From Methylomarinovum tepidoasis (GTDB taxonomy: Bacteria > Pseudomonadota > Gammaproteobacteria > Methylococcales > Methylothermaceae), in the NCBI RefSeq assembly GCF_030294985.1, contig NZ_AP024718.1, positions 620,001-684,000 of the forward strand: DNA of 64,000 bases, in the 5' to 3' direction. The notes under the pieces are model-generated. The model saw only the letters and a list, made by a program, of their open reading frames with translations, made no database searches and was not told where the DNA came from. Below, in pieces: positions 28,920-47,584 of this stretch. A program made the position numbers and the translations under genes. Numbering within the stretch: the stretch's first letter is position 1; each line of letters begins with the position of its first letter.

Positions 28920-28932
28920 AGATAATCCTGAT

Positions 28933-30155: not shown

Positions 30156-30178
30156 TCTACCGGGCAGATTCAACCTAG
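29150..30178 (+). CDS. IS481-family transposase
   Basis: A transposase of 342 residues from TTG 29150, or 335 from ATG 29171, which has AGGAGG just upstream. An N-terminal HTH (about 30-60, LAKKYGVHRHTIRKWRQRDS) is followed by the rve integrase core. DDE residues are visible: Asp in HIDIKYLP, Asp in LTDNGKEFTD, and Glu in NGMVERFNGR. The frame is intact, so it may be active. The last eight codons run past the right inverted repeat into flanking DNA, a slightly longer tail than usual. Confidence 0.92.
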   Translation: MTEKEEAMVIRLHKKARTTPEIRREIQNSDLPATVLAKKYGVHRHTIRKWRQRDSVEDASHRPHRIHATLTPQQEAIVVCLRETLLLPLDDLLAVVHRFIYPEMSRSALDRLLRRHGVSNLKALIAAREGEDAPSKGKKKGFKDYEPGFVHIDIKYLPKMPDESRGRYLFVAIDRASRWVYLEIHPTKEAKVAAGFLNRLIAKAPFKITKVLTDNGKEFTDRFCATGEREPTGRHLFDQGCQRHGIEHRLIPPKRPQTNGMVERFNGRIAEILKTTRFQSSQDLERTLMQYASVYNHQIPQKALGHISPVQALKDWQKKRPELFKKRVHNLTGLDIYRADST

Positions 30179-30181
30179 CCG

Positions 30182-31348
30182 TCAGAGTCCTTCAAGATAA
30201 CGCCGAACCCAACCGTACCCCACCCGCTCCTGCTCCAGCCGCACCCGTTTGCCGAGGCGGTCGCGGCGCAGATCTTCGTAAAGGGCGCATTCCTCCGGCG
30301 TCAGCCGCGCCAGCGCCGCTGCCGTCGGGCTCAGTTCTTCCACCCAGGCGTGGCGGTAGGCCAGCAGGGTGGCGCGATCCATGAGCAGGCTGTGGACCTG
30401 GGGCAGGTGGGCGCGCAGCCGGTTGAGGATGGCAAAACCGTGGGTGTCAATGTCGCCCCAGTAGAAGAGGTCCCGCCGCCGCAGCCAGGGGATTTCCCCC
30501 AGCACCGCGACGTTGAAGCCGCGACCAAAGATCACCAGCCCCCGCGCGACCGGCGGGAAGGCGAGGAAGTTGACCTCGTTCTCGGTGACGAATATCCGTT
30601 CCGCCCGAAGTTCCAGCCGGGCGAATTCCGCCAGGGGCACGGACAGATCGGACAGGCCGTGCAAATACAAAGCCGGATCCAGCAACCGGAAACGGAGCAG
30701 GACCGGCTTGGGACGCAGGCCGTAACGGGCCTCGAAGGCGGCGGCGCCGCGATGGCGCTCGTCGATGGCTTCCGACAGCAGCACCTGGTCGAGCAGGTCC
30801 ATGAACAGCTTCCTGCGGGATTCGATGAACTTGGTGTCCGCTCCGGCGATGTCGAGCTGGCGCAGGTACAGGCCGCTACGGGGATGGCTCTTGAACCAGT
30901 CGAGGACGGCGAGCACTTTGTCCCAGTGCGCCGCCTCTTTGAGGACGGTGAACGGATGGCGCTGGAGCCAGTCGGCCAGCTCGGGGAAACGCGCCAGGGT
31001 TTCGGCCCTCAAAGCCTCGAAACGGCGGGTGTCCTGCTCCGCCTGCCGCCCCAGGAAACGGAGCAGCCGCACCCGGTCGGCGAACACCACCGCCGTCGGC
31101 AGCCTTTGGCTTCCGATGGCGGCACGGACGCTGCGCCATTCCAGTTCCAGGCGCCCTTCCTGCGCCTGCCAAGCCCGCACCCAGGCGCGCACCGCCTCGA
31201 ACTGTCCGGTCACCGCCGCCGCCGGCGGCCCTTTCAGGGGCAGGCGCAGGGGGAAGGCTACCGCGCCGGCGAGAAAATCCCCCCGCCGCCAGCGTTTTTG
31301 CAGGCGCTGGCGCAGATTGGCGGGGGTGGTCCAGGATGCTGCCGTCAT
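30182..31348 (-). CDS. jetD: Wadjet JetD, Toprim-type nuclease subunit (DUF3322/DUF2220)
   Basis: A 388-residue JetD. The N-terminal DUF3322 region (about 1-180) is followed by a C-terminal DUF2220 Toprim-like domain. Its acidic residues are visible in FVTENEVNFLAFPPV and in LFYWGDIDTHGFAILNRLR. In type I Wadjet, JetD is the endonuclease that cleaves DNA after JetABC loop extrusion, restricting small plasmids. It overlaps the jetC stop/start by 4 bp (ATGA). An IS481 element ends 27 bp downstream. Assignment rests on domain pattern plus the neighbouring jetC. Confidence 0.9.
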   Translation of the reverse strand: MTAASWTTPANLRQRLQKRWRRGDFLAGAVAFPLRLPLKGPPAAAVTGQFEAVRAWVRAWQAQEGRLELEWRSVRAAIGSQRLPTAVVFADRVRLLRFLGRQAEQDTRRFEALRAETLARFPELADWLQRHPFTVLKEAAHWDKVLAVLDWFKSHPRSGLYLRQLDIAGADTKFIESRRKLFMDLLDQVLLSEAIDERHRGAAAFEARYGLRPKPVLLRFRLLDPALYLHGLSDLSVPLAEFARLELRAERIFVTENEVNFLAFPPVARGLVIFGRGFNVAVLGEIPWLRRRDLFYWGDIDTHGFAILNRLRAHLPQVHSLLMDRATLLAYRHAWVEELSPTAAALARLTPEECALYEDLRRDRLGKRVRLEQERVGYGWVRRYLEGL

Positions 31349-34300
31349 TCTCCTATCGATTGCCGAGCGTCACGCTCGGCCCGGTAGGCCTCCACCGTCA
31401 GCTGGCGCAGCAGCGACTGGCGGCCCTCGCGGTTGAAGACGAAACCCACCGCCGCCACGTAGGGTTCGATGACGTGGATCTTCTGCAGCGGGGTGACGAT
31501 CAAAAGCTGCAGCCCGAGGCGCTGGAACAGCGCCAGGCCGTAGCGGGCCGACTCGTCGGAGCCGCGGCCGAAGGCCTCGTCGATGACCACCAGGCGGAAA
31601 CTGCGGGGGCGGTGGGGATCGGTGGCCAAGCCGAACTGATAGGCGAGGCTGGCGGCGAGGACGGTGTAGGCGAGCTTCTCCTTCTGGCCGCCGGACTTGC
31701 CGCTGGAGTCGGCGTAGTGCTCGTGTTCGCTGTCGTCCTCGCGCCAGCGCTCGGAGGCGGCGAACACGAACCAGTTGCGCACGTCGGTGACCTGGGCGGT
31801 CCAACGGCGGTCGCTCTCGGCGCTGCCCTCACGCCCACGGAAGCGCTCGATCAGGGCCTTGACCCGCAGGAAACGCGCCTCGGCCTCGGCGGGATCATCG
31901 CCGGCGGTGAGGGCCCCTTCGGTGCACAGGCGCAGCTCGCGGCGGAAATCGCGAATGTCGGGATCGACATTGTCGCGGGCCTCGAGGCGGATGTAGCGGC
32001 CGGGATTGTAGTCGATGCCGTGGAGGGCCTGGTTGATGGCGTCGATGCGCTCGCGGATGGCCTGGCGCTCCTTGTATAGATGGGCCTGGAAGTTGGCCAC
32101 CTCGCGCAGGGTGTTCTCGTTGAGCAGGGCGCGGAAGCGGGCCTCGAAGCGCGGCAGGTCGTCCCGCTCCAGGGTTTCCAGCATGGCCCGGTAGTCGGCG
32201 GCGGCGGCCGGGTCGGCGTCCACCTCCCGGGTGTCGGCGGGATAGGCGTGGCGGTAGTCGGTCATGGCGCGGACGATGCGCTCGCGCAGGCGGCCGATCC
32301 GCTTGTCGAGGCGGTCGATGGCGGCCCCGAGCCAGGCGCGGTAGTCGCGCTCGCGGGCATCGCAGGTTTCCAGGATCAGGCGGGCGTCCCCAAGGGCCTC
32401 GGCCTGCCACTGGCGCAGGTCGGCCAGGGCGGCCTCGGTTTCCGCAGGACAGTCGGCCAGCAGCGTCTCGCACTCGGCCAGCTGCGCCCGGCACTGGTCG
32501 ATCTGCACCGCCTTGGCCTGGATGTCGCCAAGGCAGTCGTCGCGCTGCTTCTCCACCGCCTTCAGTTCCGCCTCCAGCGCTTCCAGCTGGGCCTGGAGGG
32601 TGCGGAGCACGTCCGAGGCGGCCTTCAAGGCCTCGAACTGGCGTTGCAGCGCTTCGAGCTCCAGGGCCAGGGGCTGCCAGTCCAGAAGCTGGAAGTCGTC
32701 AAACTGGGCCAGCCGGGTCAAGGCATCCTGGCGCGTCTCCAGATCACGCCGTTCCCGCTCCAGGGCGGCGATATTGTCGGCGGTCTGCTGGATCTGGGTT
32801 TCCAGGGCCTCACGGTCCTGACGCAGGGCGGCGAGCTTGGCGGCGTTGCTCCAGCCCAGGACGTAGTGGCGGCGGTCGCCGATGCGGTGGCGGTCGTCCT
32901 TCTCGTGGCGGTCGCCGCCGCTTTTGATCTGGCCGCTGACCGTAACGGCGCGGTCGGCGCGGCGGAAGTCCGCCAGATCGTCGCAGCAGCGGTAGTCGAA
33001 GCGGTGGGACAGTTCCCGCTCCAGCCAGGGGTAGAAGGCCGAGTCGGGCTTGATCTCCAGCTTGTCCACCAGGCTGTCGGGCTGGGTCCGTTTGCGGGGG
33101 CCGACCTGCTCCCGCACCCGGTAATAGACCAGACGCCCGTCCAGGTGGGTGCGGTCCACCCAGGCGCTGACCGCCGCATAATGGGCGTCGGGCACCAGCA
33201 GGGAAAGGCCGAACTGGTGCAGCAGTCGCTCGGCGGCGCCCTCCCAGGCGCGCTCGTCCTCGCGCACCTGGAGCAGCTCGCCGGCGAAGGGCAGTTCGTC
33301 CTCGGCCAGTTCCAGTGCCTGGCACAACGCCTGACGCAGCCGCTGCATCCGCGCCGGGATGTTGGAGCGGCGCTGTTCCAGGGATTCGATCTCCGCGCTC
33401 AGCTCCCGGTGTCGTTCGTTGAGACGGCGGAATTCGACGCTGGCGTCGGTATAGCGGTTCTGCAATTCGGCGCGGCGGTCCTCCAGCGCTTCGCGTTCGG
33501 CCGCGACGGCTTTGCGGTTGGCGACGAAAGTAGCCGCATCCAGCCGGGACGGCAGCCCTAGGGCGGCGGCCAGCTTGGCGTAGTTTTCGGACTGCCTGCG
33601 GCGCTGTTGGCATTCCCGCTCTTTCTGACCGATGTCGTGTTCCAGGCGCGCCAGCCGGTCGCCGCCCTGCGCGGCAATGGCTTGGCGCAGTTCGTCGCGG
33701 CGGGCCTGCAATTCGCCGCGGCGGCGGTCGAACTCCGCCAGCTGCAGCTGGCACCGGTCGCGTTCACCCGCCAGTTTCTCCAGGCGCTTCGCCAGTAGCT
33801 CGCGCTTGAGGGCGGCGAAATGGAAACCCAACGCCTCGCGGGCCTGGCGCAGCCGGTCGGCCTCAACTTCCAGCTGCTGGTGGCGGTCGCAGTCGGCCAC
33901 CAGGGGCTTGAGGCGCCCGATCTGGTCCCGGGCCTTGAGGATGGCCTGGTGGGCGCGGGTGAGGTCGTCGAAGTGGGCGACCAAAGCTTCGATGCGGCGC
34001 TGCACCTGGGGCGGTTCCAGCATGTGGCGACGGACGAAGCCGGTCAGGTTGCCCACCGATTTCATCGACACGGTCTGGTGGAACAGCTCCAGGGCCAGCT
34101 CCGAGGGGATGCCGAGGCGGCGGCGGAAGGCCCCGGCATAGGCGCTGAAGCTGTCGAACAGCTCGCAGCCGGACTGGCGCAGGCGCTTTTTGAGACGGCC
34201 GATCTCGCCGCCGAATCCGCCGAAATGTTCGGCGATGGCGAGCGCCCGCTCGGCCAGGACGTAGAAACGCGCCGGCTGGCCCGCCGGATCGCGGAACCAG

Positions 34301-34725
34301 AACACCTGCGCCAGGGTGAGATCCTGGTCCAGATCCTCGCTGCGGAAGTGGGCGAGAATGACGCTGTAGCAGCTGGCGTCGCGCAGCGAAACCGGTTTGG
34401 CCCCTCTGGCCCCGGTCTCCTCCTCGCTGCGGGCCGACTTGTAGTAGCCGAGCACGTAGCTTCTGAAATCGCGCTCCCTGGCCTCGGCCCCGGCGGCACG
34501 GTTGTAGGCCAGCTTCTGGGGCGGCACCAGCAGGGTGGTCAGGGCGTCCACCAGGGTGGACTTGCCGGAACCGATATCGCCGGTGAGCAGCAGATCGGCC
34601 CCGGCCGGTTCCAGTTTCCAGACCTTGTCGTGGAAGGTGCCCCAGTTGCACACCTCCAGGCGGTGGAGCCGGAAACCGGGGCGGTCGCCGGCGGCGAAGG
34701 GAAGGAGTTCGATTTGAGCGGCCAT
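31345..34725 (-). CDS. jetC: Wadjet JetC, SMC-like (MukB-type) ATPase
   Basis: A 1126-residue SMC-family protein. Walker A LLTGDIGSGKSTLVDALTTL is at about 50-70. Long coiled-coil arms (about 250-480 and 650-950) flank a hinge-like centre. The C-terminal ATPase half has the ABC signature SGKSGGQKEKLAYTV (about 1000-1015) and Walker B FRLVVIDEAFGRGSDE. It is the loop-extruding motor of JetABC. Its normal partner jetB is not upstream; instead the MITE, a protease gene and R-M genes intervene. Its own promoter must lie in the 260-bp gap at 34726-34985. Confidence 0.93.
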   Translation of the reverse strand: MAAQIELLPFAAGDRPGFRLHRLEVCNWGTFHDKVWKLEPAGADLLLTGDIGSGKSTLVDALTTLLVPPQKLAYNRAAGAEARERDFRSYVLGYYKSARSEEETGARGAKPVSLRDASCYSVILAHFRSEDLDQDLTLAQVFWFRDPAGQPARFYVLAERALAIAEHFGGFGGEIGRLKKRLRQSGCELFDSFSAYAGAFRRRLGIPSELALELFHQTVSMKSVGNLTGFVRRHMLEPPQVQRRIEALVAHFDDLTRAHQAILKARDQIGRLKPLVADCDRHQQLEVEADRLRQAREALGFHFAALKRELLAKRLEKLAGERDRCQLQLAEFDRRRGELQARRDELRQAIAAQGGDRLARLEHDIGQKERECQQRRRQSENYAKLAAALGLPSRLDAATFVANRKAVAAEREALEDRRAELQNRYTDASVEFRRLNERHRELSAEIESLEQRRSNIPARMQRLRQALCQALELAEDELPFAGELLQVREDERAWEGAAERLLHQFGLSLLVPDAHYAAVSAWVDRTHLDGRLVYYRVREQVGPRKRTQPDSLVDKLEIKPDSAFYPWLERELSHRFDYRCCDDLADFRRADRAVTVSGQIKSGGDRHEKDDRHRIGDRRHYVLGWSNAAKLAALRQDREALETQIQQTADNIAALERERRDLETRQDALTRLAQFDDFQLLDWQPLALELEALQRQFEALKAASDVLRTLQAQLEALEAELKAVEKQRDDCLGDIQAKAVQIDQCRAQLAECETLLADCPAETEAALADLRQWQAEALGDARLILETCDARERDYRAWLGAAIDRLDKRIGRLRERIVRAMTDYRHAYPADTREVDADPAAAADYRAMLETLERDDLPRFEARFRALLNENTLREVANFQAHLYKERQAIRERIDAINQALHGIDYNPGRYIRLEARDNVDPDIRDFRRELRLCTEGALTAGDDPAEAEARFLRVKALIERFRGREGSAESDRRWTAQVTDVRNWFVFAASERWREDDSEHEHYADSSGKSGGQKEKLAYTVLAASLAYQFGLATDPHRPRSFRLVVIDEAFGRGSDESARYGLALFQRLGLQLLIVTPLQKIHVIEPYVAAVGFVFNREGRQSLLRQLTVEAYRAERDARQSIGE

Positions 34726-34985
34726 GGTGGTTTTGCCTCGCTCAAGGAAAATTGAAGTATCTGCAAATCATCATATTCTGGATAATTATGTGGATCACTG
34801 ATGGTACGCGGCTGCCGACAGATGCGCACGGACTTACACAATCCCTGGCTGTCATTTCGACCGCAGGGAGAAATCTTCATGTCTTGGTTTCGATCGGGCT
34901 CAATCGCAAGATTTCTCGCTACGCCCGAAATGACAAGGGCAGCGGTTTGAAATGACAGTGCGTAACATCAGTGGATCACATATAT
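34726..34985. other. Intergenic gap between jetC and the protease gene
   Basis: A 260-bp AT-richer gap with no ORF. It holds the MITE-like element (34850-34935). Between it and the jetC start (34726-34849) lies ordinary AT-rich sequence that could carry a jetC promoter; I cannot point to a convincing -35/-10 pair. This is the boundary of the 10.8-kb insert inside the Wadjet operon. Confidence 0.5.
34850..34935. mobile_element. MITE-like element with terminal inverted repeats
   Basis: An 86-bp element with long terminal inverted repeats. The left end TGTCATTTCGACCGCAGGGA continues GAAATCTT; the right end, read inward, is TGTCATTTCGGGCGTAGCGA followed by GAAATCTT. That is 24 of 28 positions identical. 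The TGTCATTTCG...GAGAAATCTT type end is a widely seen non-autonomous repeat in many bacterial genomes. It encodes no protein and lies exactly at the jetC-side junction of the insert. Confidence 0.8.
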
Positions 34986-37484
34986 TCAGGTCTCAACGGC
35001 GATCTTGATCTGGCTCTCAATGGGGGTATAGAGGTCAATATTAACTTGTGGTGCGCGAATGGAAACCAGCAGCGAATAAGGTGCCCGCTGCTTGTATCGC
35101 TCCAAGCTTGGCCGAGTCTTCCACCAGCCACTCACCGGATAGACCGCCAACACGCCCCGGCTGGCCAGATCAGCGGCAGGGCCTTTCCAAATGTCAGAAT
35201 GCACGCTGCCCCGGTGGCGATTTTGGGTACCCAAGACCCAGTGTGGATCGTTACCGGTATGGGCACTGGTGCCCTCTTCTGCGTCTCTGGCGGCGAGATT
35301 TACTCGATGACGAAACTCCTCATCCGACTCGTGCGGGCGTTTCACATCGAAACGCAACCCGTGTGACTCATAGCGATAACGGGATTTGACACCGCGCGCA
35401 GAGGGATTCGGCTCGATGAAGTAGGACAGCGTGACCCGCATTTCCACCTCGGTCTCACCCAGCGTTTCCAGTTCCTCCAGGGGCCAGGGCAATCGATGCA
35501 GGTTCATATCACGGAGCTTTGGCTCTTTACCCTGCTCCCGCATGAACGGCTGCAGACTGTCCTCGCAGATCAGGGTCAGCGAGTTCTCGACACTCCATAA
35601 TGCTCGGGAAAGATCCGGCTGCCCAAAGCCGCAGTGACGGACCAGACACGCCACCTCGCTCTTGCTGGGATTGGCCGGATTGGAAAGAAACTGCTGTTTC
35701 ATGGCCGGCGTCCACTCTGCGGAATGGACCATCAGGCCGCGGATCGTCTCCGACCGCAGCTCTGGATAGGCAGCCATCAGCTGCGCCGTCATGCGGGCGG
35801 CCAGTGCAGAGGCGGCACTGGTGGCATTGGTTGTCGTGAACAGCCGACTGGTTATGTCCGCATTTGTTGTCAGCAGACTGAGACTGGGCATCCACACCGC
35901 ACCTGTCTCATCCTTAGCGGCATTGCCCCCTTCAAAAACCACATCAGGCTTGAATGGCCAATGGCCTTGCCAAGTTTGCGACGTCGTGCTGAAAGGACTT
36001 AAGCCACCAGCCGGAGCGACAGGTTGATAATCACCTGTATCCGGTTCGGTGATATGCACCAGCTCCGTGCTGGCACCCACAGTCAGCACATTCCATGCCT
36101 GGCCTGGATCATGGATTCCATCCGAGGTATTACTGGCAGGATACTCCGCCCAGGCATTGGGGTCATCGACATTGCCCGCAGCGACCACAAACAACCTTGG
36201 CGTTTCACCCTGGTTTTCGTAATCGACCGCCAATCGATCCAGCGTGGCCGACCAGGCGGAAGGCCTGCCCCGGTCCCTGGCATCCCGCGCCGTGATCGCC
36301 ATGCTGAACACCCGTCGACGTTCGGGCGCGGTGATCTCTGGGTGGCTCACCGCCTGAATGGTGAGATAGCCGTGGTGCTCAGGATCGCTAGTGTTCCCGT
36401 GATTGCGGTGCAGCAGTTTCACCGACTCCAAACGGTGACCCACCGCGACAGGTCCTGAACCATCGAGAAGGGACGTCAGGTTGCCCAATAGCGCCAGCCC
36501 CGCCATTTCGGTGCCGTGCCCTTCCTGGTCATTGGTTCCCCAGACCGGATCCACCGTGTGGGTGTCCTTTGCCCGAATGGCCGGAGCAAGCAGCGGATGC
36601 GCAATGTTGACGCCGGTGTCCAACAAGCAGACGTGCGGCACTGCCGTCCCTTCGTTTGGTAGTGTCATGCGCTGAAGCAGTTCATCTGCCCATTCCGGCT
36701 GCTCCTCCGGCGGCAGCGAATCGAAGAAATCGGCGGTTTCCTTTGCACGTCGCAGTTCGGCGATGCTGTTCAAGGTCAGCACCGAACGCTGCATCTGATC
36801 CAGGGTGCCGTAGACCAACAGAACCGTGCGTTCCGGGAATTCGATCCAACCTTCGGCCACGCGAAAATCCAGCCCTTTGGCCATTTGCCTGAACTGCTCG
36901 ACCACTTTCAACCGGTCGCCGCGCACCGGCAGCCACACTTCCCACCAGAAGGCCTCGTTGGGTTCGGAGGGAAAGACTTCGGGGTCGTCGGTCCAAAGGG
37001 AACGGATACTGGCCACCCGTATGCTGCGGATGGCATCGATCAGCTTCTGGTGTTTTGGTTCACCCTTGGGTGTGTCCTTTTCCAGATAAGCCTTGATCTT
37101 ATTTTCAAGGATATGCAGTTTACCGTCGGGTACAAACACAGAAGCCAAGGTCTTGTTCTCTTCATGCCGCACATTCAGCAGCTCGATACCTGAGCGCTCC
37201 GCGGCCAGTGATTCGAAGGCCAGCTCGATGTCTGGAAAGCTTTCGAATTCGATCTGCAAGCCGAACCCTTCTTCCATTCCGTTTTGTTGCTGAATGGTCT
37301 TGGCCTGTTCCAGGTCTGACTTCAGCCCTTCGACCTGTTGCAGTAGTGCGCTGCCATGCGCTTGCCGGTTTCGGTGTGGCACTGCCTGGCCACCGCCGCC
37401 AGCGCCCGGGCGTCGAAACGGCTCCGGGGTGGCCGTGTCGCTGAGAATGAAGTGTCGTTTGGGCTGAGAGACTTCTTCTGCCAT
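34986..37484 (-). CDS. ietS: Subtilisin-like serine protease, IetS-type
   Basis: An 832-residue S8 subtilase. The N-terminal 250 residues are non-catalytic (alpha/beta and coiled, EGLKSDLEQAKTIQQQNGME). The catalytic triad is visible: Asp in HVCLLDTGVNIAHPLL (about 280), His in GHGTEMAGLALLG (about 317), Ser in TTNATSAASALAARM (about 560), with an oxyanion Asn in VVAAGNVDDPNAWAEYP. There is no signal peptide, so it acts in the cytoplasm. It follows an AAA ATPase gene by 6 bp. Such AAA/subtilase pairs are the IetAS system, first described in plasmid incompatibility and later reported as anti-phage. Confidence 0.82.
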   Translation of the reverse strand: MAEEVSQPKRHFILSDTATPEPFRRPGAGGGGQAVPHRNRQAHGSALLQQVEGLKSDLEQAKTIQQQNGMEEGFGLQIEFESFPDIELAFESLAAERSGIELLNVRHEENKTLASVFVPDGKLHILENKIKAYLEKDTPKGEPKHQKLIDAIRSIRVASIRSLWTDDPEVFPSEPNEAFWWEVWLPVRGDRLKVVEQFRQMAKGLDFRVAEGWIEFPERTVLLVYGTLDQMQRSVLTLNSIAELRRAKETADFFDSLPPEEQPEWADELLQRMTLPNEGTAVPHVCLLDTGVNIAHPLLAPAIRAKDTHTVDPVWGTNDQEGHGTEMAGLALLGNLTSLLDGSGPVAVGHRLESVKLLHRNHGNTSDPEHHGYLTIQAVSHPEITAPERRRVFSMAITARDARDRGRPSAWSATLDRLAVDYENQGETPRLFVVAAGNVDDPNAWAEYPASNTSDGIHDPGQAWNVLTVGASTELVHITEPDTGDYQPVAPAGGLSPFSTTSQTWQGHWPFKPDVVFEGGNAAKDETGAVWMPSLSLLTTNADITSRLFTTTNATSAASALAARMTAQLMAAYPELRSETIRGLMVHSAEWTPAMKQQFLSNPANPSKSEVACLVRHCGFGQPDLSRALWSVENSLTLICEDSLQPFMREQGKEPKLRDMNLHRLPWPLEELETLGETEVEMRVTLSYFIEPNPSARGVKSRYRYESHGLRFDVKRPHESDEEFRHRVNLAARDAEEGTSAHTGNDPHWVLGTQNRHRGSVHSDIWKGPAADLASRGVLAVYPVSGWWKTRPSLERYKQRAPYSLLVSIRAPQVNIDLYTPIESQIKIAVET

Positions 37485-37490
37485 GAGTGA

Positions 37491-38501: not shown

Positions 38502-38522
38502 AGTGGTCTCCTCCGGCGCTCA

Positions 38523-41396
38523 TCATACCCTGAACACCTTCATCACCTCATCCCCCAGGTGGTTGATGACCTTCACGGCAATGCGACCGGAGGCGGGCTT
38601 GGGGAAGGGGCGGGAGACATTGCTGTTGAGGCTGGCCCAGGCTTCTTCGTCGATCTCGGCTTTGAGGGTGGTCTTGAGGGCTTTGTAAGGATCGCCGGCG
38701 CCGAGGAAGTAGGCGTGGCGGACGAAGAAGGATTCCTGATTGTAGTCGGTGTCGATGAACCAGCAGGCGATGCCCTCGGGGCCGTCGGAGCGGACTTCGC
38801 CGGTCTGGGGGTGGAAGACGTCCACGCCGTTGATCCTGACCTGAATCCTGCCGTCGCCGGTTTCGAGGATGTCGATGTCGGGCTCGCCGAAGATGACGAA
38901 CAGGTTGCCCTTGCCGGTGTTCTTGAGGTCGGCAGCCATGTGCAGGTCGGCGTTCATCCGCGCCTGGAGTATGGGCAGCCTGCCCAGCTTGTTCAGCCCG
39001 CCGCACTGGGCGTCGTAGCTGAAGGCGCAGGCGATGAGCACGTCGAAGCCGGCATCGGCGGCCTCGCGGGCGGCTTCGACCAGATCGGGGCGGGAGACGG
39101 TGCCGAACTCGGGGCCGACGAAGATGGCGGCGCGGACTTCCTTGCCGGCCTCGTCCTCGTACTTGCCCTCGGCGCAGATGAGATCGCCGGGCCAGGGCAC
39201 GAGGGAGACGAAGTCGATCTTGTCCTCCTTGTGGGCCTGCTGCACGCCGGCGGTGCGCAGATGATCGAGGATCATCTCGACGAAGCCCACCTCCTCGCCG
39301 TAGGCGCCGCGCCCTTCGCAGGTCTGATCCACCAACTCGTCGTTTTCGTCCACCGTCAGCACCCGGTGGGGCGAGAGGCTCTCCACGGTGAAAGGCCCGG
39401 CCACGCGCACCCTGGACTTGTCCTCGTAGGGTTTGTCGTAGAGGTACTCGAAATCGGCCTTGGCGGCGATGGAGGCGTCGATCTCCTTCTGGCGGGCGAT
39501 GCGCAGTTCCCAGAACTGCTCGTGCAACGCCCTGGCTGCTTCCGACCAGCTCTCGGGGAACTCGCGCGGGATTTCCCACTCCTGAATCTCCGGCGGCACT
39601 TCCACGTCGTACTGCTGCCTCTTGCGGTAGTCGGCCAGCCAGCCGTCGGGCAGGTGCCGGGTCAGTTCCTCGCGCAGGGGCTTGAGCTGCGCCTCGAAGC
39701 GCTCCCAGATGACGTCGATCTCGGCGTTGTTGGCGATGGATTTGAGGGTGATATGGGGAACGCGCTGATAGACGAAGCCGTGGCGGATGTCGCCGTGGGT
39801 GGGCTTGCTGGAGGGCGCGCTGCGGGTGATCTCCGCCTCCTTCCGCTGCCCCTCGGGGCTGTCGGCCAGCAGGTAGTAGGGATAGCGGGCGCCCATGATG
39901 CGGGCGCGGGCCAGGGCCAGGGCGACGCGGGAGGTGTCGATGGTGATCCAGCGTCGACCCCACTGCTCGGCCACGTAGGCGGTGGTGCCGGACCCGCAGG
40001 TGGGGTCCAGGACCAGGTCGCCGGGGTCGGTGGTCATGAGCAGGCATCTTTCGATGACCCGTCTTGCAGTTTGAACGACATAGACCTTATATTCACTCCA
40101 ACCAGCAATTGCGGTGTCATCCCAATAGTTACCCAGCGGGATTGCAGGGTAATCTTTCAGAAATCGAACATAATTCAGAGACGTGCGGCGAATATAGAGG
40201 CGATCCGCCTTTTCCAACCGCTCCATGCCAACTCGATTCGTCTTCCAACCACCAGATCCCGGCCAAAACCGACGGCCTTGATGCTCGTAACGGAAACGTG
40301 TCGTTTCACCACCAGACTGTGATGTCAGATTATCGATCCGCAAAGTGGCATTGGTTTTCTTCTCGTCAGACAAATCCGTCTTCGTAAGCCTAAACACATC
40401 TCCTGGAAACCTTCGAGTATACATATACTCTCCAGCTCCCTGAGTCTGATGAGACTTCTCTCGCATGAGCTGTCTGTACTTTAGAGAGCTTTGATTCCTG
40501 GCGTACCAAAGTACGATGTCATAAATGCTTGGGATGTACGCAGAGGTCGCGCTTGATGTTTTCGCAAATGCGATTTCGCCAATAAAATTCTCATCCCCAA
40601 ACACCTCATCCATCAGCGCCCGCACTCGGTGCACATTCTCATCCCCGATCTGCACGAAGATGGAACCGGAGTCGGTCAGTAAGTCGCGGCACACGGTGAG
40701 CCTGTCACGCAAGTAGGTCAAATAAGAATGAATACCGTCGCGCCAGGTGTCGCGGAAGGCTTTGACCTGCTCCGGCTCGCGGGTGATGTGTTCGGGCTTG
40801 CCGTCCTTGACGTCGCGGCTGGTGGTGGACCACTGGAAGTTGGAGTTGAACTTGATGCCGTAGGGCGGGTCGAGGTAGATGCACTGCACCTTGCCGCGCA
40901 GCCCCTCGCGCTCGGCCAGACTGGCCATCACCTGTAATGAATCGCCCAGGATCAGGCGGTTGGTCCAGTGGGCCTCGTGCTGGTAGAACTCGGTTTTGGC
41001 CGCTTCGTTGTCGATGCCGTTGAAGTCGGCGAACAGGTCAGGCTGCGGATCGGCTGACTGCTCCCTGGCCTCGGTGCGGCGCATCAGATCGTCGATCAAC
41101 GCCTTGGGGTGAATCTTCTCCTGGATGTAGAGCGGCGGGGCCTGCACCACCAGGTCGGACCAGTCCTGCTCGTCCTTGCCGCGCCACACCAGTTGCGGGT
41201 CGAGATCACGGTTGCGGTTGGCTTTTTCTTCCTCCAGGCCGCTCACGCCGCGCGGGTAGCGCACCGCCTTGGGCTTCTCCACCTCCTCCGGCACCACCGA
41301 CTGATACTCGGCGGTGGGGATGTTCTTGCGCGTGGCCTCGTCGTGGGTGAAGGTTTCAATGCGCTTGTGAATGGACTTTTTGGTGCGTTTAGCCAT
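38523..41396 (-). CDS. Type III-like R-M DNA methyltransferase (Mod)
   Basis: A 957-residue beta-class N6-adenine methyltransferase. Motif IV DPPY is at 176-179 (CIYLDPPYGIKFNS) and the SAM motif LDPTCGSGTTAYVAEQWGRR at about 460-480. The target-recognition region lies between them (about 250-445) and is coded by noticeably less GC-rich DNA than the rest of the gene. A long C-terminal extension (about 500-957) is unusual in length for Mod. It overlaps the res stop by 8 bp. It should protect host DNA from the partner Res enzyme; its recognition site is unknown. Confidence 0.88.
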   Translation of the reverse strand: MAKRTKKSIHKRIETFTHDEATRKNIPTAEYQSVVPEEVEKPKAVRYPRGVSGLEEEKANRNRDLDPQLVWRGKDEQDWSDLVVQAPPLYIQEKIHPKALIDDLMRRTEAREQSADPQPDLFADFNGIDNEAAKTEFYQHEAHWTNRLILGDSLQVMASLAEREGLRGKVQCIYLDPPYGIKFNSNFQWSTTSRDVKDGKPEHITREPEQVKAFRDTWRDGIHSYLTYLRDRLTVCRDLLTDSGSIFVQIGDENVHRVRALMDEVFGDENFIGEIAFAKTSSATSAYIPSIYDIVLWYARNQSSLKYRQLMREKSHQTQGAGEYMYTRRFPGDVFRLTKTDLSDEKKTNATLRIDNLTSQSGGETTRFRYEHQGRRFWPGSGGWKTNRVGMERLEKADRLYIRRTSLNYVRFLKDYPAIPLGNYWDDTAIAGWSEYKVYVVQTARRVIERCLLMTTDPGDLVLDPTCGSGTTAYVAEQWGRRWITIDTSRVALALARARIMGARYPYYLLADSPEGQRKEAEITRSAPSSKPTHGDIRHGFVYQRVPHITLKSIANNAEIDVIWERFEAQLKPLREELTRHLPDGWLADYRKRQQYDVEVPPEIQEWEIPREFPESWSEAARALHEQFWELRIARQKEIDASIAAKADFEYLYDKPYEDKSRVRVAGPFTVESLSPHRVLTVDENDELVDQTCEGRGAYGEEVGFVEMILDHLRTAGVQQAHKEDKIDFVSLVPWPGDLICAEGKYEDEAGKEVRAAIFVGPEFGTVSRPDLVEAAREAADAGFDVLIACAFSYDAQCGGLNKLGRLPILQARMNADLHMAADLKNTGKGNLFVIFGEPDIDILETGDGRIQVRINGVDVFHPQTGEVRSDGPEGIACWFIDTDYNQESFFVRHAYFLGAGDPYKALKTTLKAEIDEEAWASLNSNVSRPFPKPASGRIAVKVINHLGDEVMKVFRV

Positions 41397-44300
41397 GCCG
41401 TTTCTCCATTGCTTCCACCGCGCCCGTTACCGCATCGAGCATCCTGTTGAACGCCTCTTCCACTTTTTCTTCGAAGTCGTCCTGCATTTCATACACGTCG
41501 GTGAACTCGGCAAAGGCCCAGCGGCCATACTGGCCGTGGTTGTTGACGCCGGGCACCCAGTAGTTCTCCATGGTGGCTTTCTTTTCTTTGGCGTCTTCGC
41601 GGCGGTAGCCCTTGATTTCTACGATCAGATTGAGGGGATCGTCCGGGCCGCGGCCATCGTCGATTCTCACGATGAAGTCCGGGAGGTAGGTGCGGGTTTC
41701 GGATCCATAGCGATAAGGCACCTCCAGCCCCAGGCCGTGGTTCTTCACGTAGGCGAGCACCTGCGGGTGGCACTCGGCCACGCGGCAGAATTCGGCCTCC
41801 CAGCCGGAATCGAGGATCACCCAGTTGATATGGCATTTCTCGGGATCGGTCTCCCAGCGGAGGGTCTTCGAGGTGGTGAAGTTGACATGGGCGGTGGAGC
41901 CCACCGGGTTGTAGGGGTCGAACACCGCCTTGACCGGACGCTCGCCCACCAGGGCGCGGGTGATGGCGGCGGTGATACGCTCGCAGGCCATGTCGGCCAG
42001 CTCTGGGTACATGAGCTGGGCGGGCCAGGTGCCGCCCTTGCAGACCAGGCACTCGTCCAGCCACTTCCGGGTGATGCGCTTGAGCTGGCCGAACAGGTGC
42101 AGGGGCGGATCGGCGCCGGGGTCGCGCCATTTGGTGTAGAGCAGGCGCTGGGTGAGCTGGAAAACCAGCGAGGCGCGGCGCATGTCCTTGAGGTGTTCCA
42201 GGCTCAGGTCCACCCCTTCGCCGATGATGCCCTGATTCCGGGTGATGGAGGGGCCGACCAGCTCGGGGGTGAGCTCCAGCACCGAATCCTCGTTGAACCG
42301 GGCGGTGAGGCGCTCCTGCGGCAGCTCCACCCGATAGCCGGCGACGCGGGGGAAGCGGATCTCCAGATGGTCGCGCTCGGGGCGCACGGCCTTGACCTGC
42401 ACCGTCTCGCGCGGCGGCTGGGGCGGCGAGACCACCGGCTTGGCGGTGAAGTCGAAGGGGATGCCGAGCACGTCGGCGTATTCGACGTTGAACAGGCCTT
42501 CCTCGTTGAGATCGTAGGACTGGCGGCGCAGGGCGCGACCGATCACCTGTTCGCAGAGCAGTTGGGTGCCGAAGGCGCGGACGCCCAGCACGTGGGTGAC
42601 GGTGTTGGCGTCCCAGCCTTCGGTGAGCATGGAGACCGAGACCACGCAGCGCACCGACTCGCCTAGCGTTCCGGGCTTGCCGACGGTGTTCATCACCTCG
42701 CGTAGCAGGGTGGCGTCGTCGATCTCCTTGCCGGCGCGGATTTGGTCGGCCAGCGCGCCGCCGCGTTCGAGGGCTTCGCGCTTGAAGCGCTCGATCTCGT
42801 CGGCGGCCATTTCGCGGAAATTCTTGTCCAGGGCCTCGCCGGATTCCAGCTGCTCGCTGTCGATCAGCAGGGTGCGCGGGCGGGGCAAGGGGTCGCCGTG
42901 GTCGTCGAAATTGCGAAACAGCGGCAGGCGGCCGTTTATCAGGGTGGTGGAACCGTCCTCGTTCTCGCGGTGGAAACCGGAGATGTAGTCGTAAACCAGT
43001 TTGGAGGTGGCGGTGTTGTTGCAGACCACGATGAAGCAGGGCGGAATGCGCAGGCCCGCCTGCTTCCACAGTTCGAAGGTCTTTTCGTAGTGGCCGTAGA
43101 GGGCTTCGAGGGCGGTCTTGAGGGGGGCGGGCAGCGCCAGCGGGTCGAGGGTCTTGGCCTTGCCCCGCCCCTTCTTAGGCATGTCCTTGCGGATGTGCTC
43201 CCAGAGATTGCGGAACATGGGCATTTCGTTGCCGGGGATGTTGTCGGCCACCGGCACGCGCGGCAGCTTGACGATGCCGCACTCGATGGCGTCCATCAGC
43301 GAAAAGTCGCTCATGGTCCAGGGAAACAGGGTGCCCTCGGCGTAGCCTGAGCCGCTGAGGAAAAAAGGCGTGGCGGAAAGGTCGATCACCCGTGCCACGC
43401 CCAGCTTGCGGTTGGCCGCCTCCAGGCCGGAGATCCATAGCCGGGCCGCCTCCCGGTTCTTCTCGGCCTCTTTTCTGTCGTCGCCGGTCTTTTTCTCTTC
43501 GTCCGGCTCGCCAGGCTTTTCCCGGTAGCAGTGGTGGGCCTCGTCGTTGATGACCAGAATGCGCTTCATGCCCATCAGCTCGGGCATCACCCGCTGCAGC
43601 ATCTGGCCCTCGGATTCGGTAGTCTGCAGCGGCTCGCCATGGCCTTGCAGCAGGGCGCGCCCGCCCTTGGAAAGCTCCAGGCGCTCGCGCCGCTTGAAGG
43701 CGTGGTAGTTGGTGATGACGATCTTGGCCCGCTCCAGGTCTGGAAGCATGTCGGCAGGCGCCAGCTCGCGGCTCTGGTAGTAGCTGTCGGGATCGTTGGG
43801 CTGCAGCACCCGCAGGCGGTCGCGGATGGTGAGGCCGGGCGTCACGACCAAAAAGCCCCGGGTGAAACGCTTGCTCTGGGGATGACGGACGGCGTTGACG
43901 GTCTGCCAGGCGATGAGCATCGCCATGACGGTGGTCTTGCCCGCGCCGGTGGCGAGCTTGAGGGCAAGGCGCATCAGCTCCGGGTTGGCCTCGGCGTTGG
44001 CGTTGGCCAGGTGGTCCAGATATTTCTGGCCGGTCTTGCCCAGCTGCGGGGCGACCTCGGTCAGCCAGATGGCGGTCTCGACCGCTTCGACCTGACAAAA
44101 GAACGGGCGGATGCCGCTGAAATCGTGGCAGCGCCAGTGTCGCAGCAGCCGAGCGGTCTCCGGCGTGACCCGCCATTGGGATTGGGGAAGCGCCCGCCAC
44201 CGAGTCACTTCCTCGCGCACGCCGTTGATGATGGAAGCGTGGTATTGCTGCGCCTGAGTGGATAGATCGTCGAACAACAGCGCGTCCTGCGTGGGCGCGC

Positions 44301-44463
44301 CTTTGCGCTGTTTGGGTCTGGGGATGGGGGTGAGGAACTGGGCCGGTCTGCGCGATTCGACGATCTTCCCGGTCGGCTGGCCGTTTTCGTCCAGTTCCCA
44401 ATGGCGCGCCGGATAGGCGTAAGGAGAATTGAGGATCGGGCGGTCGAAAAAGGGGTTGGCCAT
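41389..44463 (-). CDS. Type III-like restriction helicase-nuclease (Res)
   Basis: A 1024-residue SF2 helicase with a C-terminal nuclease. It begins NPFFDRPILNSPYAYPARHW. Walker A ATGAGKTTVM is at 171-180 and the DEAH box ILVINDEAHHC near 304. Helicase motifs V-VI are in GWDANTVTHVLGVRAFGTQL followed by CEQVIGRALRRQS. The C-terminal PD-(D/E)xK nuclease has LPDFIVRIDDG and LIVEIKGYR. All motifs look intact, so the enzyme may be active. It is upstream of mod with an 8-bp overlap. Its start is 57 bp from a divergent small gene, which may share the promoter. Confidence 0.88.
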   Translation of the reverse strand: MANPFFDRPILNSPYAYPARHWELDENGQPTGKIVESRRPAQFLTPIPRPKQRKGAPTQDALLFDDLSTQAQQYHASIINGVREEVTRWRALPQSQWRVTPETARLLRHWRCHDFSGIRPFFCQVEAVETAIWLTEVAPQLGKTGQKYLDHLANANAEANPELMRLALKLATGAGKTTVMAMLIAWQTVNAVRHPQSKRFTRGFLVVTPGLTIRDRLRVLQPNDPDSYYQSRELAPADMLPDLERAKIVITNYHAFKRRERLELSKGGRALLQGHGEPLQTTESEGQMLQRVMPELMGMKRILVINDEAHHCYREKPGEPDEEKKTGDDRKEAEKNREAARLWISGLEAANRKLGVARVIDLSATPFFLSGSGYAEGTLFPWTMSDFSLMDAIECGIVKLPRVPVADNIPGNEMPMFRNLWEHIRKDMPKKGRGKAKTLDPLALPAPLKTALEALYGHYEKTFELWKQAGLRIPPCFIVVCNNTATSKLVYDYISGFHRENEDGSTTLINGRLPLFRNFDDHGDPLPRPRTLLIDSEQLESGEALDKNFREMAADEIERFKREALERGGALADQIRAGKEIDDATLLREVMNTVGKPGTLGESVRCVVSVSMLTEGWDANTVTHVLGVRAFGTQLLCEQVIGRALRRQSYDLNEEGLFNVEYADVLGIPFDFTAKPVVSPPQPPRETVQVKAVRPERDHLEIRFPRVAGYRVELPQERLTARFNEDSVLELTPELVGPSITRNQGIIGEGVDLSLEHLKDMRRASLVFQLTQRLLYTKWRDPGADPPLHLFGQLKRITRKWLDECLVCKGGTWPAQLMYPELADMACERITAAITRALVGERPVKAVFDPYNPVGSTAHVNFTTSKTLRWETDPEKCHINWVILDSGWEAEFCRVAECHPQVLAYVKNHGLGLEVPYRYGSETRTYLPDFIVRIDDGRGPDDPLNLIVEIKGYRREDAKEKKATMENYWVPGVNNHGQYGRWAFAEFTDVYEMQDDFEEKVEEAFNRMLDAVTGAVEAMEKRHG

Positions 44464-44519
44464 GGGCGTCGTTTTCGCTAGGGAATTTGCGATTTATGAT
44501 AACGGTTCAGAGGCCGATA
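44464..44519. promoter_or_regulatory. Divergent promoter gap, res / small gene
   Basis: A 56-bp gap between the res start and the divergent small gene. It is AT-rich for this region (GATTTATGATAAC) and could hold back-to-back promoters. No operator or clear -35/-10 pair could be assigned. Confidence 0.3.
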
Positions 44520-44753
44520 ATGGTGAAATCCATGCCCGAGAATGCGCCCTGTCCGCCCTTAGGCAGTTGGCCCGAGGAAAAGCCGGTGCCGCTCGATCAT
44601 CCCGAACTGCCCGGGCCGGTGCGGGAAGCGGTCCAAGCGCTCTGGCAGCCCGGCGACTCGCTGCACCGCGTCCCTTGCCGAAGGGTAGTCGAATGGTGGC
44701 TGCTCGACGTCGATGGCAACTTGGTGGAGGCGTTCTGGCTTGAAGACCGCTGA
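44520..44753 (+). CDS. Small unknown protein next to a frameshifted gene
   Basis: A 77-residue ORF from the ATG at 44520 (MVKSMPENAPCPPLGSWPEE). It has no known domain. It contains a Pro-rich start, then PGPVREAVQALWQPGD, and ends VEWWLLDVDGNLVEAFWLED. The codon usage and the uninterrupted frame make it plausible. Its end overlaps the start region of the next gene. It is divergent from res and lies inside the insert that splits the Wadjet operon. Confidence 0.55.
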   Translation: MVKSMPENAPCPPLGSWPEEKPVPLDHPELPGPVREAVQALWQPGDSLHRVPCRRVVEWWLLDVDGNLVEAFWLEDR

Positions 44754-45520
44754 GCTGCTCCCGCTCCCCCTGCAGGAGGAACGTTACGCCTTTGCCTCGT
44801 GGCCGGCGGGGCTGCATTGCTTCCGTATCGTGGGGGAGGACCGTCCGCCGCGGCGGGTGTGTTTCTCCAAACTGCTGCTCGACCCCAAGCCGCCCCACGG
44901 GCTGTCGTCGATTCTCGAAACCGTGCTTGAAATCGCGGGCGACCAGCAGGACATCCGTCGTCAGATCGCCCGCCGCGACCGCATCCCACCGCCTCCGGCG
45001 GTGGATTATGCGGCGCTGATCGAAGCGTGGCATGCGTGGGCGGACGGCATTCCCGCATCCTGCCGCCATCTCGCCGCCGTTTTGCCCAAGCGTTACCAAT
45101 ACGCCGCCCTGGAAAGCATGCGCCACGTGCCGGAATTTCGTGAATTTCTGGCCCAGGAGCAGGACAGCGGCGGTTTGTGGTTTCCGGTGATCCTTTGGGC
45201 CTTGGGGCGGGTGACACAGCGTTCTTTTGCAGAACGGCTGGAACTGAGCCGGCGCTGTTGCGGCACCTGCGGCGCTTCGCCCTGGAAGACCTCGACAGCG
45301 AGGTCTTCTGGATGCTGGTGGAGGTGCTCGCCCATCCCCCGGGGCCGACGGCGCTAGCCACTGTGGAACGGCTGGATCCGCCGTTGCTGCGCGCGCTGCA
45401 CGCATTGCCCGCGTGGCTGTTTTCTACCGGTCTTGCCTGCGCGCTGGCGCAGATCATCGACAAGGACACCCCCCCTGCAAGTGGGAGATCGAAATCTTCG
45501 TCGCCCGCGACGCTCCCTGA
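44740..45520 (+). pseudogene. Frameshifted unknown gene between the R-M genes and jetB
   Basis: Reading frame 1 (TTG 44740, or ATG 44713) codes sensibly up to about 45240 (FPVILWALGRVTQRSFAERL). From there coding continues in another frame as EPALLRHLRRFALEDLDSEV and FWMLVEVLAHPPGPTALATV to about 45470. At the run of seven C bases (45470-45476) it shifts again to CKWEIEIFVARDAP and stops at 45520. Both changes are consistent with loss of one base. Restoring both would give a protein of about 260 residues. No domain is recognised. The stop lies 17 bp from the convergent jetB stop. Either a decayed gene or two sequencing errors. Confidence 0.6.
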
Positions 45521-45536
45521 GCGCTTTCCTTATCTT

Positions 45537-46115
45537 TCAAGCGCCGCCGTCTTCCTCCAAATGCTTGCGGTACGCCGCCAGCCGTTCATTGAACTCCCCC
45601 AGCCACTGGGCATCGACGAAGCTCTTGAGAATCCGCTGCACCTCGAACAGGTGCTCCTGCCCCTTGAGGCGGCGCAGGAAGCCCAGTTCCTCGATGCGCT
45701 TGAGGTCGCGGTCGAGGCGGTCGAGCAGTTTGGCCTCGTTGCTGGATTCGGGCAGGAACACCCGCACCATTTCGGCGATGTCGTCGCGGTGCAGCACCAG
45801 GCGGGTGTCGCCGCCGCTCTGGTCGAATTCCAGCAGGCGGCGGCGCAGCAGTGCCAACAGCAGGCTCACCAGAAAGCTCAGGGGCCGGCGCGGCACCAAG
45901 CGCGGCAGCGGCGTTTCCTCCGCGGCGAATTCCCGCTGGCGCAGGAAGGCGTGGCCCTCGGCCTCGTCGATGATCAGCTCCAGGCCCATGAGGGCCGCCA
46001 CCTCGCGGATCCTCGCCTGGAGATCCAAAAGCTTCTGCCAGCGGGGCGGGTCGGCTTCGGCATAGATCACCCCCTTGAGCAGCGGGATCAGCACCTGGGG
46101 CAACGGGTCTTCCAT
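45537..46115 (-). CDS. jetB: Wadjet JetB (DUF4194, MukE-like kleisin-associated subunit)
   Basis: A 192-residue JetB/DUF4194 protein, the small winged-helix partner in the JetABC complex. It begins MEDPLPQVLIPLLKGVIYAE; core patterns RPLSFLVSLLLALLRRRLLE and LDRDLKRIEELGFLRRLKGQ are typical. The start at 46115 lies 8 bp after the jetA stop, so I discard the in-frame extension into jetA. Downstream, where jetC should follow, lies a convergent frameshifted gene and the R-M cassette. jetC is 10.8 kb away. Confidence 0.85.
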   Translation of the reverse strand: MEDPLPQVLIPLLKGVIYAEADPPRWQKLLDLQARIREVAALMGLELIIDEAEGHAFLRQREFAAEETPLPRLVPRRPLSFLVSLLLALLRRRLLEFDQSGGDTRLVLHRDDIAEMVRVFLPESSNEAKLLDRLDRDLKRIEELGFLRRLKGQEHLFEVQRILKSFVDAQWLGEFNERLAAYRKHLEEDGGA

Positions 46116-46123
46116 TCGCTTCC

Positions 46124-47584
46124 TCAGCGGCAGTACAGAATCAAAGGTACACGGGCGCGGCGGACGACGCCGTCGCTGCCGGTCCATTCGATGGTTTCGC
46201 TGCGGGCATCGTCCACCACCGCCCTGGGATCGGCCTCGGCCAGTTCCAGATAGGTCAGCAGTTCCGCCAATCCTTCCGCCAGGGGACGGGCCGCCACCAC
46301 CCGCGCCAGGGAGACCTGGGGCTGGGACCGGAGCAGGTGGCGGATGTGGTCCGCCAGCGCCTCGCGATCGACGAAGCGCTGCTTGAACAGGGCCTCGTCG
46401 AGGGTTTTGGCCTCCCCTTCCACCACCACCCGGTCCTCGATGCGGATGCGGGCGGAAGGCTGGAACAGGGGGCGCTCCATCACCAGTTCGATGGCCGGGG
46501 CGGTGGCGTCCACGGTCATGAAATCCCCCGGGGGCAGGCGGTCGCGGACGGCGATGGCGTGCTGCTCGATGTCGCGCAGCAGGGCCATGATGCGGCGGTT
46601 CTCCAGCCAGGTCTGGTCGTCGAGCCAGCGGCGCAGCTGCTGGGACAGCCGGGCGACGGTACGCTGGGTGGCCTCGCCGGCTTCGAGCCAGTCGTAGTGG
46701 ATGCGGCGCAGGCGCGGGTCGGGGCGAAGCTGGCGGACCGGTTCCAGCGCCAGGATCTTTTCCAGCAGGCCGGTCAGCTCCTCCTGGCGCCGCGGGTCCA
46801 TGAGGAAATCCCAGAAGGCGCGGAAGCTGCGGCCCTCGTCGGAATCGGCGATAGCGTCGGTGTGGCCAAACACTTCCGCCAACAGCTCCCCCTTGCCGCC
46901 CTCCCAGGTGGCGATGCGCTCGCGCACCCGGCGGTCGAGGTCGCGGAAGTTCTGTTCCACGGCACGGAAATCGGCCAGCAGGCGGCGGGCGGTGTCCTGC
47001 ATCTGCAGGAAGCGGTCGCGCAGGCGGGTCGGGTCCATCAGTTCCAATTCGCCGCCGCGGATGCGCGCGATCTCAGCATCGATTTCGCCCCGGCGGCGTT
47101 CCAGCTCGGCGATGCGGGCCTCCGGGTCGGTCTCGCTGCCCTCGGCCATCTGCCGCAGCAGCTCGAAGACCAGCAGCAGACGCGATTCGGTGCCGACGAA
47201 CTCGCGCCGCTGCAACCCGGTCACCCACTCCAGCGCCTGCACCGCCGCCGGGGTCAGATCGTAGTGGGGCTCATCGCTGTCCTCCGGATAGTACTTGCGC
47301 AGCCAGCCCTTATCGTCGCCGGCCCAGTCGTCCAGATAGGCGGCCGCCGGTTTGGGAAAGGCGTCCCCGCCCTCCTGCTGGCGCAGGTCGAAAAGCAGGT
47401 CGTCGAGGATGGCGATCAACTGCTGGCGGGGCAGGGCGCGGCGGTTGGGGGCGATGAAGACGGCGTGCAGCAGGGTGAGCACCAGGGGCGCGTGGGCGGC
47501 GGCCAGCAGGCGCCAGGCCGGATGCTGCTGGCGCAGCAGAACCAGGTCGTGGTAATCGGGAAAACGGCTGAAATCGGGTGACAA
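46124..47584 (-). CDS. jetA: Wadjet JetA (DUF3375, MukF-like kleisin)
   Basis: A 486-residue DUF3375 protein, the kleisin-like subunit of type I Wadjet. The N-terminal winged helix (about 10-110, HDLVLLRQQHPAWRLLAAAH) is followed by a long helical and coiled region (about 160-330) and a C-terminal helical domain. The start codon is a TTG at 47584 with no strong Shine-Dalgarno; no better in-frame ATG lies near. It is first in the jetA-jetB half, divergent from the coiled-coil gene at 47699. Confidence 0.88.
   Translation of the reverse strand: MSPDFSRFPDYHDLVLLRQQHPAWRLLAAAHAPLVLTLLHAVFIAPNRRALPRQQLIAILDDLLFDLRQQEGGDAFPKPAAAYLDDWAGDDKGWLRKYYPEDSDEPHYDLTPAAVQALEWVTGLQRREFVGTESRLLLVFELLRQMAEGSETDPEARIAELERRRGEIDAEIARIRGGELELMDPTRLRDRFLQMQDTARRLLADFRAVEQNFRDLDRRVRERIATWEGGKGELLAEVFGHTDAIADSDEGRSFRAFWDFLMDPRRQEELTGLLEKILALEPVRQLRPDPRLRRIHYDWLEAGEATQRTVARLSQQLRRWLDDQTWLENRRIMALLRDIEQHAIAVRDRLPPGDFMTVDATAPAIELVMERPLFQPSARIRIEDRVVVEGEAKTLDEALFKQRFVDREALADHIRHLLRSQPQVSLARVVAARPLAEGLAELLTYLELAEADPRAVVDDARSETIEWTGSDGVVRRARVPLILYCR

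Follow-up and report, generated by a model that had tools for sequence, protein, structure and literature searches.

A type I Wadjet operon of Methylomarinovum tepidoasis split between jetB and jetC by a 10.8-kb block of defence genes

Organization of the split operon

The four genes of a type I Wadjet system, and a block of about 10.8 kb lodged between jetB and jetC, are found in the window, the stretch of 64,000 nucleotides of Methylomarinovum tepidoasis DNA analysed here. Nine ORFs of the region were compared with the models of Pfam, PADLOC and NCBIfam. The features of the locus are:

30182..31348, minus strand: jetD, nuclease (PADLOC JetD1, 471.1 bits)
31345..34725, minus strand: jetC, SMC ATPase (PADLOC JetC1, 1565.5 bits)
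34727..45548, no strand assigned: inserted block of ~10.8 kb, absent from the congeneric genome G003 (blastn to L061, the G003 locus)
34760..34985, minus strand: palindromic spacer between ietS and jetC (MFE -87.7 kcal/mol, z -6.27)
34986..37484, minus strand: ietS-like subtilase (Pfam Peptidase_S8, 191.9 bits; PADLOC IetS, 120.4 bits)
37491..38501, minus strand: ietA-like AAA ATPase (PADLOC IetA, 256 bits; NCBIfam IteA, 214.5 bits, cut-off 510)
38523..41396, minus strand: mod, type III methyltransferase (PADLOC MTase_III PDLC03632, 1398.9 bits; DPPY motif)
41389..44463, minus strand: res, BPTD_3080-family restriction endonuclease (NCBIfam NF046055, 1383.1 bits, cut-off 800; GAGKTT and DEAH motifs)
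44487..44753 and 44713..45357, plus strand: two small ORFs that belong to no known family and look frameshifted
45537..46115, minus strand: jetB, KITE-like, DUF4194 (PADLOC JetB1, 284.6 bits, ORF scanned as 45537-46187)
46124..47584, minus strand: jetA, kleisin-like, DUF3375 (Pfam PF11855, 528.7 bits; PADLOC JetA1, 712.6 bits)

All four jet genes are open, reside on the minus strand and follow the order A-B-C-D; jetD and jetC overlap by 4 nt, and the overlap is unaffected by the insertion. JetC matches solved JetC chains (E 5.7e-79), and its Walker A, signature and Walker B motifs are all kept. JetD matches solved MksG/JetD chains; E-N and D-x-D are aligned in the MksG pair, and MksG has the same residues opposite E256 and the D-x-D at 299-301, which we take to be Toprim residues. 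The full JetABCD set, required by the PADLOC definition of Wadjet as given in PMC9252829, is found together with the SMC ATPase motifs and the acidic residues of JetD. The locus corresponds to type I Wadjet in the four proteins, their order and strand, and the jetC-jetD overlap, but differs in that jetB and jetC are 10.8 kb apart rather than adjacent. The jet genes are usually contiguous, and Wadjet, an anti-plasmid SMC system that has received much study, is regarded as a tight operon. The initial annotation had described intact jetA-jetB and jetC-jetD halves, on the same strand, in canonical order and 10.8 kb apart; family scans and coordinates agree with this description.

Content of the inserted block

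In res and mod, a Res helicase-nuclease adjoins a Mod methyltransferase, as in type III restriction-modification of the BPTD_3080 group; the PADLOC REase_III model matches res weakly (16.7 bits). The second pair associates an AAA ATPase with an S8 protease, in which D/H/S-like segments were identified by eye, as in Iet (IetAS) systems. The NCBIfam IteS model scores 83.9 bits on the subtilase, against a cut-off of 900, and because both proteins score below the NCBI equivalog cut-offs the pair is named Iet-like. Gene pairs and families are those of known Iet and BPTD_3080/type III systems; the difference is that the window joins both in one cassette inside Wadjet. res and mod overlap, gaps of 21 and 6 nt separate mod from ietA and ietA from ietS, and the four genes are on the same strand as jetABCD.

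An insert made of a subtilase/AAA pair, a Mod/Res pair and a divergent unit had been proposed. Both pairs were confirmed by the family scans; the divergent unit is to be corrected to the plus-strand pair of small ORFs, in which no family was found by Pfam. Plus-strand coding carries on downstream in another frame, as judged by eye, so that the unit looks frameshifted. Matches to the larger ORF in 369 genomes are limited to itself and one marginal stretch of 33% identity (E 9e-4), and its first 174 residues have no match in a plasmid collection. A minus-strand ORF of 303 aa (44494-45405) was discarded as a gene, as it belongs to no family in Pfam, PADLOC or NCBIfam and looks spurious.

The spacer preceding jetC has 47% GC and folds as a long hairpin. 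It was rejected as a member of a repeat family: its own genome gives one match, itself, and a hairpin-derived pattern was searched in 239 fetched loci, of which the 3 that carry it all represent the window sequence itself. No integrase or transposase was found among the scanned ORFs of the insert, no target duplication was seen by eye at its junctions, and the palindromic spacer lies at one end only, a picture unlike that of a transposon or integrative element.

The empty site

In a search of 101 related genomes, relatives of JetA and JetC were found in 32 and 29, respectively. G003, a genome of the same genus, carries an uninterrupted jetABCD operon at the same chromosomal place, with only jetB between jetA and jetC. 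The flanks are 93-94% identical to those of the window and extend past the operon on both sides, and a polyphosphate kinase gene follows jetD in both. The blastn alignment ends at 45549, within the end of jetB, and restarts at 34726, one base before the ATG of jetC. Three nucleotides of G003, the jetB stop codon, are swapped for 10.8 kb in the window, and the last three codons and the new stop of the window jetB come from inserted DNA. A second defence system between the genes of a first one, and a relative with the empty site, as expected of embedded defence, are both found here. The proposal that a Wadjet operon had served as landing site is borne out by the uninterrupted junction at the same place in G003, and by other lineages carrying other cargo; the comparison of insert ends with uninterrupted relatives, suggested earlier as a check, gives adjoining jetB and jetC in G003 and exact boundaries. 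We also looked for a more diverged donor patch next to the junction and rejected it, as 100-nt steps nearby are as alike as elsewhere.

Other differences mark the surroundings. A second insertion relative to G003 (27483-30177) lies directly downstream of jetD; it holds an rve-type transposase ORF (29150-30178, plus strand), and positions 28001-29000, at 38% GC, are part of a low-GC stretch holding two ORFs without a Pfam family. About 0.9 kb (50231-51173) inside an ORF with a CobW-type GTPase domain (48722-51157) is unaligned to G003. The region upstream of jetA (47863-48114) is repeat-like, and gives extra overlapping alignments to one G003 stretch.

Origin of the cassette

Homologs of res were searched in 369 genomes; 50 gave hits at E ≤ 0.001, many of which are partial. 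Stretches were fetched around 14 matches; several stop early at contig ends. In one of the 14 (L224, genome G455) res, mod, ietA and ietS are found in the same order, with protein identities of 85, 77, 95 and 87%, and a toxin-antitoxin-like pair, recognized by eye, lies between res and mod. No jet genes were found in this 19.9-kb stretch. At the remaining 13 loci mod adjoins res in 11, and neither mod nor iet genes are present in 2. DNA similarity between the window and L224 covers parts of 35015-44457 and nothing outside, which argues for another origin of the plus-strand unit and the spacer. On these comparisons the insert is made of at least two pieces, the larger being a portable res-mod-ietA-ietS cassette. 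BPTD_3080-type res/mod junctions are themselves often opened: in 9 of 12 loci with both genes, among L224 to L235, ~0.6-1.9 kb separate the tblastn matches.

Frequency and distribution of split operons

HMMs of the four Jet proteins were built from fetched loci, gaps were measured in 153 non-redundant loci, and gaps of 500 bp or more between jet genes were counted as splits. In this set, enriched for splits because Methylomonas and Accumulibacter were targeted once splits had been noticed, jetA/jetB is split in 15 of 129 loci, jetB/jetC in 4 of 135 (the window; G371, 2.9 kb; L117, 1.5 kb; G039, 0.6 kb) and jetC/jetD in 1 of 126. The latter is a Methylomonas locus (L199, genome G473) in which jetD itself is broken up; its jetD matches (10196-13044) fall in two pieces ~1.7 kb apart.

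Two samples not picked for splits were also analyzed. For a class sample, 33 of 47 JetA places were fetched, short matches and places already in the set being left out; splits were found at jetA/jetB in 1 of 30, at jetB/jetC in 1 of 28 and at jetC/jetD in none of 21. A second sample comprised 80 named loci from a profile search of genome contigs, the best 80 of 521 candidates; the query alignment had 17 rows, 3 of them taken from Methylomonas operons with a split and 1 from the window. Here the figures are 4/71, 1/76 and 0/77 for the three junctions in the same order. Pooled counts (5/101, 2/104 and 0/98) are low: a minority of Wadjet operons are split.

A JetA tree was obtained by a quick method from 114 rows and has many weak forks; 23 of 137 rows, below 40% identity to the window, were left out. 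Changes were counted on 102 rows with measured gaps, 14 of them split, after dropping 9 contig-separated and 3 untestable rows. At least 7 changes are needed for jetA/jetB and at least 4 for jetB/jetC, the splits in the window, G371, G039 and L117 being a separate change each. Interrupted jet order, which was to be looked for in other genomes, hence recurs, at jetB/jetC in G371, G039 and L117, and the cargo differs. Two loci lack a detectable jetB: no JetB match was obtained in genome G068, and a Chlorobiaceae locus (L159, 9759-9917) has jetC-jetD with a short jetA match only.

Cargo of other split operons

An all-against-all comparison of 139 ORFs gave no match between the cargo proteins of the window and those of other inserts. 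In Methylomonas, jetA/jetB is occupied by PD-Lambda-5 genes with PIN and ParE toxins (G065), a PifA-like KAP NTPase with a Phd-like (below the Pfam cut-off)/PIN pair (G089), a GmrSD-like protein (G468), a nucleotidyltransferase toxin-antitoxin-like pair with DUF488 genes and an IS110 transposase (G059), or an AAA-DUF4143 protein (PDC-S01) with a 1350-aa protein of no assigned family (G029). In G483, where the locus is cut by a contig end, a nucleotidyltransferase pair and a ParA-like ATPase were found. The genome of Methylomonas sp. LW13, listed as complete, has an N-acetylmuramidase and an SH3 protein at jetA/jetB, which do not form a recognised defence pair; cargo alike by sequence resides in G467 and G481. 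The N-acetylmuramidase and SH3 genes (L197, 3412-5126; also L194 and L202) are 96-99% alike in three Methylomonas genomes.

In Accumulibacter, jetA/jetB hosts a Dsr1-like SIR2 protein and a BrnT toxin in G493, with G499 and G504 alike by sequence, a Uma2 nuclease in G506, and an insert of 0.5 kb in G520. Both junctions are occupied in L117, from a Pseudomonas-labelled MAG, by YhcG (jetA/jetB) and a Schlafen-type protein (jetB/jetC). G371 has a Uma2-type protein on the opposite strand at jetB/jetC, and a PIN/Phd pair occupies jetA/jetB in G004, a genome of the same genus as the window. Single genes scanned in L192, G039 and G245 have no Pfam family. Several genes carried as cargo by other split operons have matches among the PDC or HEC families. 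According to PMC12988326, PDC families are themselves defined by embedding, and for this reason matching one does not prove a defence role independently.

Some loci depart from this scheme. Three Accumulibacter genomes with jetB on another contig run against the cargo pattern: after jetA come ordinary genes (Na/H exchanger, cobalamin genes) in G494 and G505, and two genes of no family, then a sulfate permease, in G519. These are larger rearrangements or contig-separated distances. In G492 (Methylomonas SURF-2) jetA precedes NUDIX and NAMPT genes and a type I restriction-modification system, with jetBCD on another contig. The cytidylyltransferase-NUDIX protein and the NAMPT beside jetA (L195, 3458-5936) may form an NAD+ rebuilding pair near the restriction-modification genes.

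Boundaries and exchange

The Methylomonas operons of G059 and G029 match at 96% identity as far as the jetA stop; the cargo that follows is for the most part unrelated, and identity is high again (98% and 96%) from ~1.7 kb before jetB to beyond jetD. G065 and G089 are 96% identical on the jetA side, PIN gene included, and 91-97% identical on the jetB side, while the middle differs. Alignments between Accumulibacter G506 and G493 (82-86% identity) end at the jetA end and restart at the jetB start. Judging from where the alignments end, jet gene ends delimit the cargo on both sides in the window and in the Accumulibacter pairs, and on the jetA side in G059-G029. We infer that the pattern fits recombination through jet flanks, with selection against jet-damaging products.

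Selection on split jet genes

Between the window and G003, dN/dS is 0.14 for jetA, 0.10 for jetB, 0.17 for jetC and 0.37 for jetD, the gene under the loosest constraint of the four. On the window branch, with G004 as outgroup, 25 silent and 7 replacement changes were counted in jetA, 8 and 1 in jetB; as the date of the insertion cannot be fixed, this purifying selection may precede the split. In five split Methylomonas operons (ten pairs, dS ~0.2-1.2) dN/dS is 0.085-0.111 for jetA, 0.082-0.221 for jetB, 0.079-0.149 for jetC and 0.121-0.255 for jetD. In four split Accumulibacter operons (six pairs) values are 0.054-0.131 for jetA and 0.185-0.396 for jetB, the latter higher than in Methylomonas. 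One clade of the JetA tree has 9 Methylomonas rows, 5 split and 4 contig-separated, and much of the Methylomonas divergence has therefore probably accumulated after the split; G079, with a contiguous jet operon, and G481, with a broken jetA, are outside the tree. By these ratios the split Methylomonas jet genes look selected, the junction concerned being jetA/jetB, not jetB/jetC.

Among alignment columns that at least 97% of relatives conserve, the window differs at 2 of 101 in JetA, 0 of 36 in JetB, 16 of 308 in JetC and 1 of 59 in JetD. G003, which is unsplit, shares every one of these differences, and the split operon has none of its own. Broken jet genes were found in some split operons, jetA in G481 (L202), jetB and jetC in G089 (L069). 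In a promoter scan, sites were no more numerous than in its shuffles, and no promoter-like site was found upstream of jetC.

Discussion

The locus is best explained, with a probability of roughly 70%, by the nested insertion of a foreign defence block into a canonical jetABCD operon, with a Wadjet system that probably still works. A canonical operon, in the state kept in G003, would have taken up foreign defence genes between the coding end of jetB and the start codon of jetC. Most of the block is a ready-made res-mod-ietA-ietS cassette, which also exists apart from Wadjet. Recombination, with only boundary-exact products surviving, seems the likeliest route. The insertion spares every jet frame: jetB runs on for three codons to a new stop, and jetC acquires a new leader with a Shine-Dalgarno-like stretch. 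Wadjet would assemble from the two halves and cut small circular DNA, and the cassette would add restriction and an Iet-like activity. jetCD may be expressed by read-through, which the spacer hairpin could hinder, or from a putative promoter in the spacer. The exact boundaries, the intact frames and motifs, the empty-site relative, the cassette at a second place and the recurrence of splits are features of the DNA itself; function of the split Wadjet, as judged from its genes, is likely.

Alternatively, the insertion may have cut jetCD from their promoter, leaving a dead Wadjet whose genes have not yet decayed. The lack of a promoter-like site upstream of jetC, the strong hairpin in the spacer, the dN/dS of jetD and the jet genes broken in G481 and G089 agree with this explanation. 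It is nevertheless unlikely: the four genes retain open frames and the motifs that were checked, the window shares each of its conserved-column departures with G003, and split Methylomonas operons hold dN/dS near 0.1, though at another junction. Still less probable is a composite system, in which Wadjet, restriction-modification and Iet act together under shared regulation, nesting having been selected for that. The eight genes on one strand and the tight spacing of the cassette would suit such a unit, but the cassette resides in G455 without jet genes beside it, Wadjet in G003 without the cassette, and the window cargo proteins are unmatched among those of other inserts. An assembly chimera, suggested by the odd gene order and nothing else, is very improbable, and chance unlikely, since the window lies inside a single 2.42-Mb contig, one of two in its genome, G003 forms one contig of 2.69 Mb, the cassette order recurs in G455, and the genome of LW13, listed as complete, is split at jetA/jetB.

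Insertion of defence genes into type I restriction-modification, BREX and Hma operons has been published (PMC11411939, PMC12629846, PMC12255303). These papers describe TgvAB inside a type I operon of Vibrio cholerae VPI-2 (PMC11411939), DarTG2 between hsdS and hsdR in EPEC (PMC12255303), and type I operons hosting second systems or PrrC (PMC12629846). The locus resembles the embedded type I cases reported there in having one defence system nested in another, with cargo varying by genome, and differs in that the host is an SMC-nuclease Wadjet and the cargo a two-system cassette. The principle of guilt by embedding (Payne et al. 2024, as cited in PMC12988326 and others) applies in general terms, and PDC and HEC matches occur among the cargo of other split operons. 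The PADLOC authors (PMC9252829) note that intervening genes, such as insertions of mobile elements, can fragment multi-gene systems. Among the matches listed in the search, in which subscription literature was mostly not covered, no report has Wadjet as the embedding host. The split locus is not a new class of system, and the idea of a nested module not usually described holds at most for the Wadjet host, embedding in type I, BREX and Hma operons being in print.

A wider interpretation can be put forward tentatively. Wadjet junctions, chiefly jetA/jetB, would be standing exchange sites, where defence cassettes are swapped in and out by recombination via alike jet flanks and Wadjet is kept working; jetC/jetD would escape insertion because coupling between the nuclease and its SMC partner has to be preserved. 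If so, one anti-plasmid operon would be a chassis for changing anti-phage cargo, often beside toxin-antitoxin genes. If the junctions accept other defence genes while Wadjet remains functional, searches demanding adjacency would miss or break such systems, the cargo would be a source of new candidate defence genes, and one could test directly whether anti-plasmid and anti-phage functions are expressed together.
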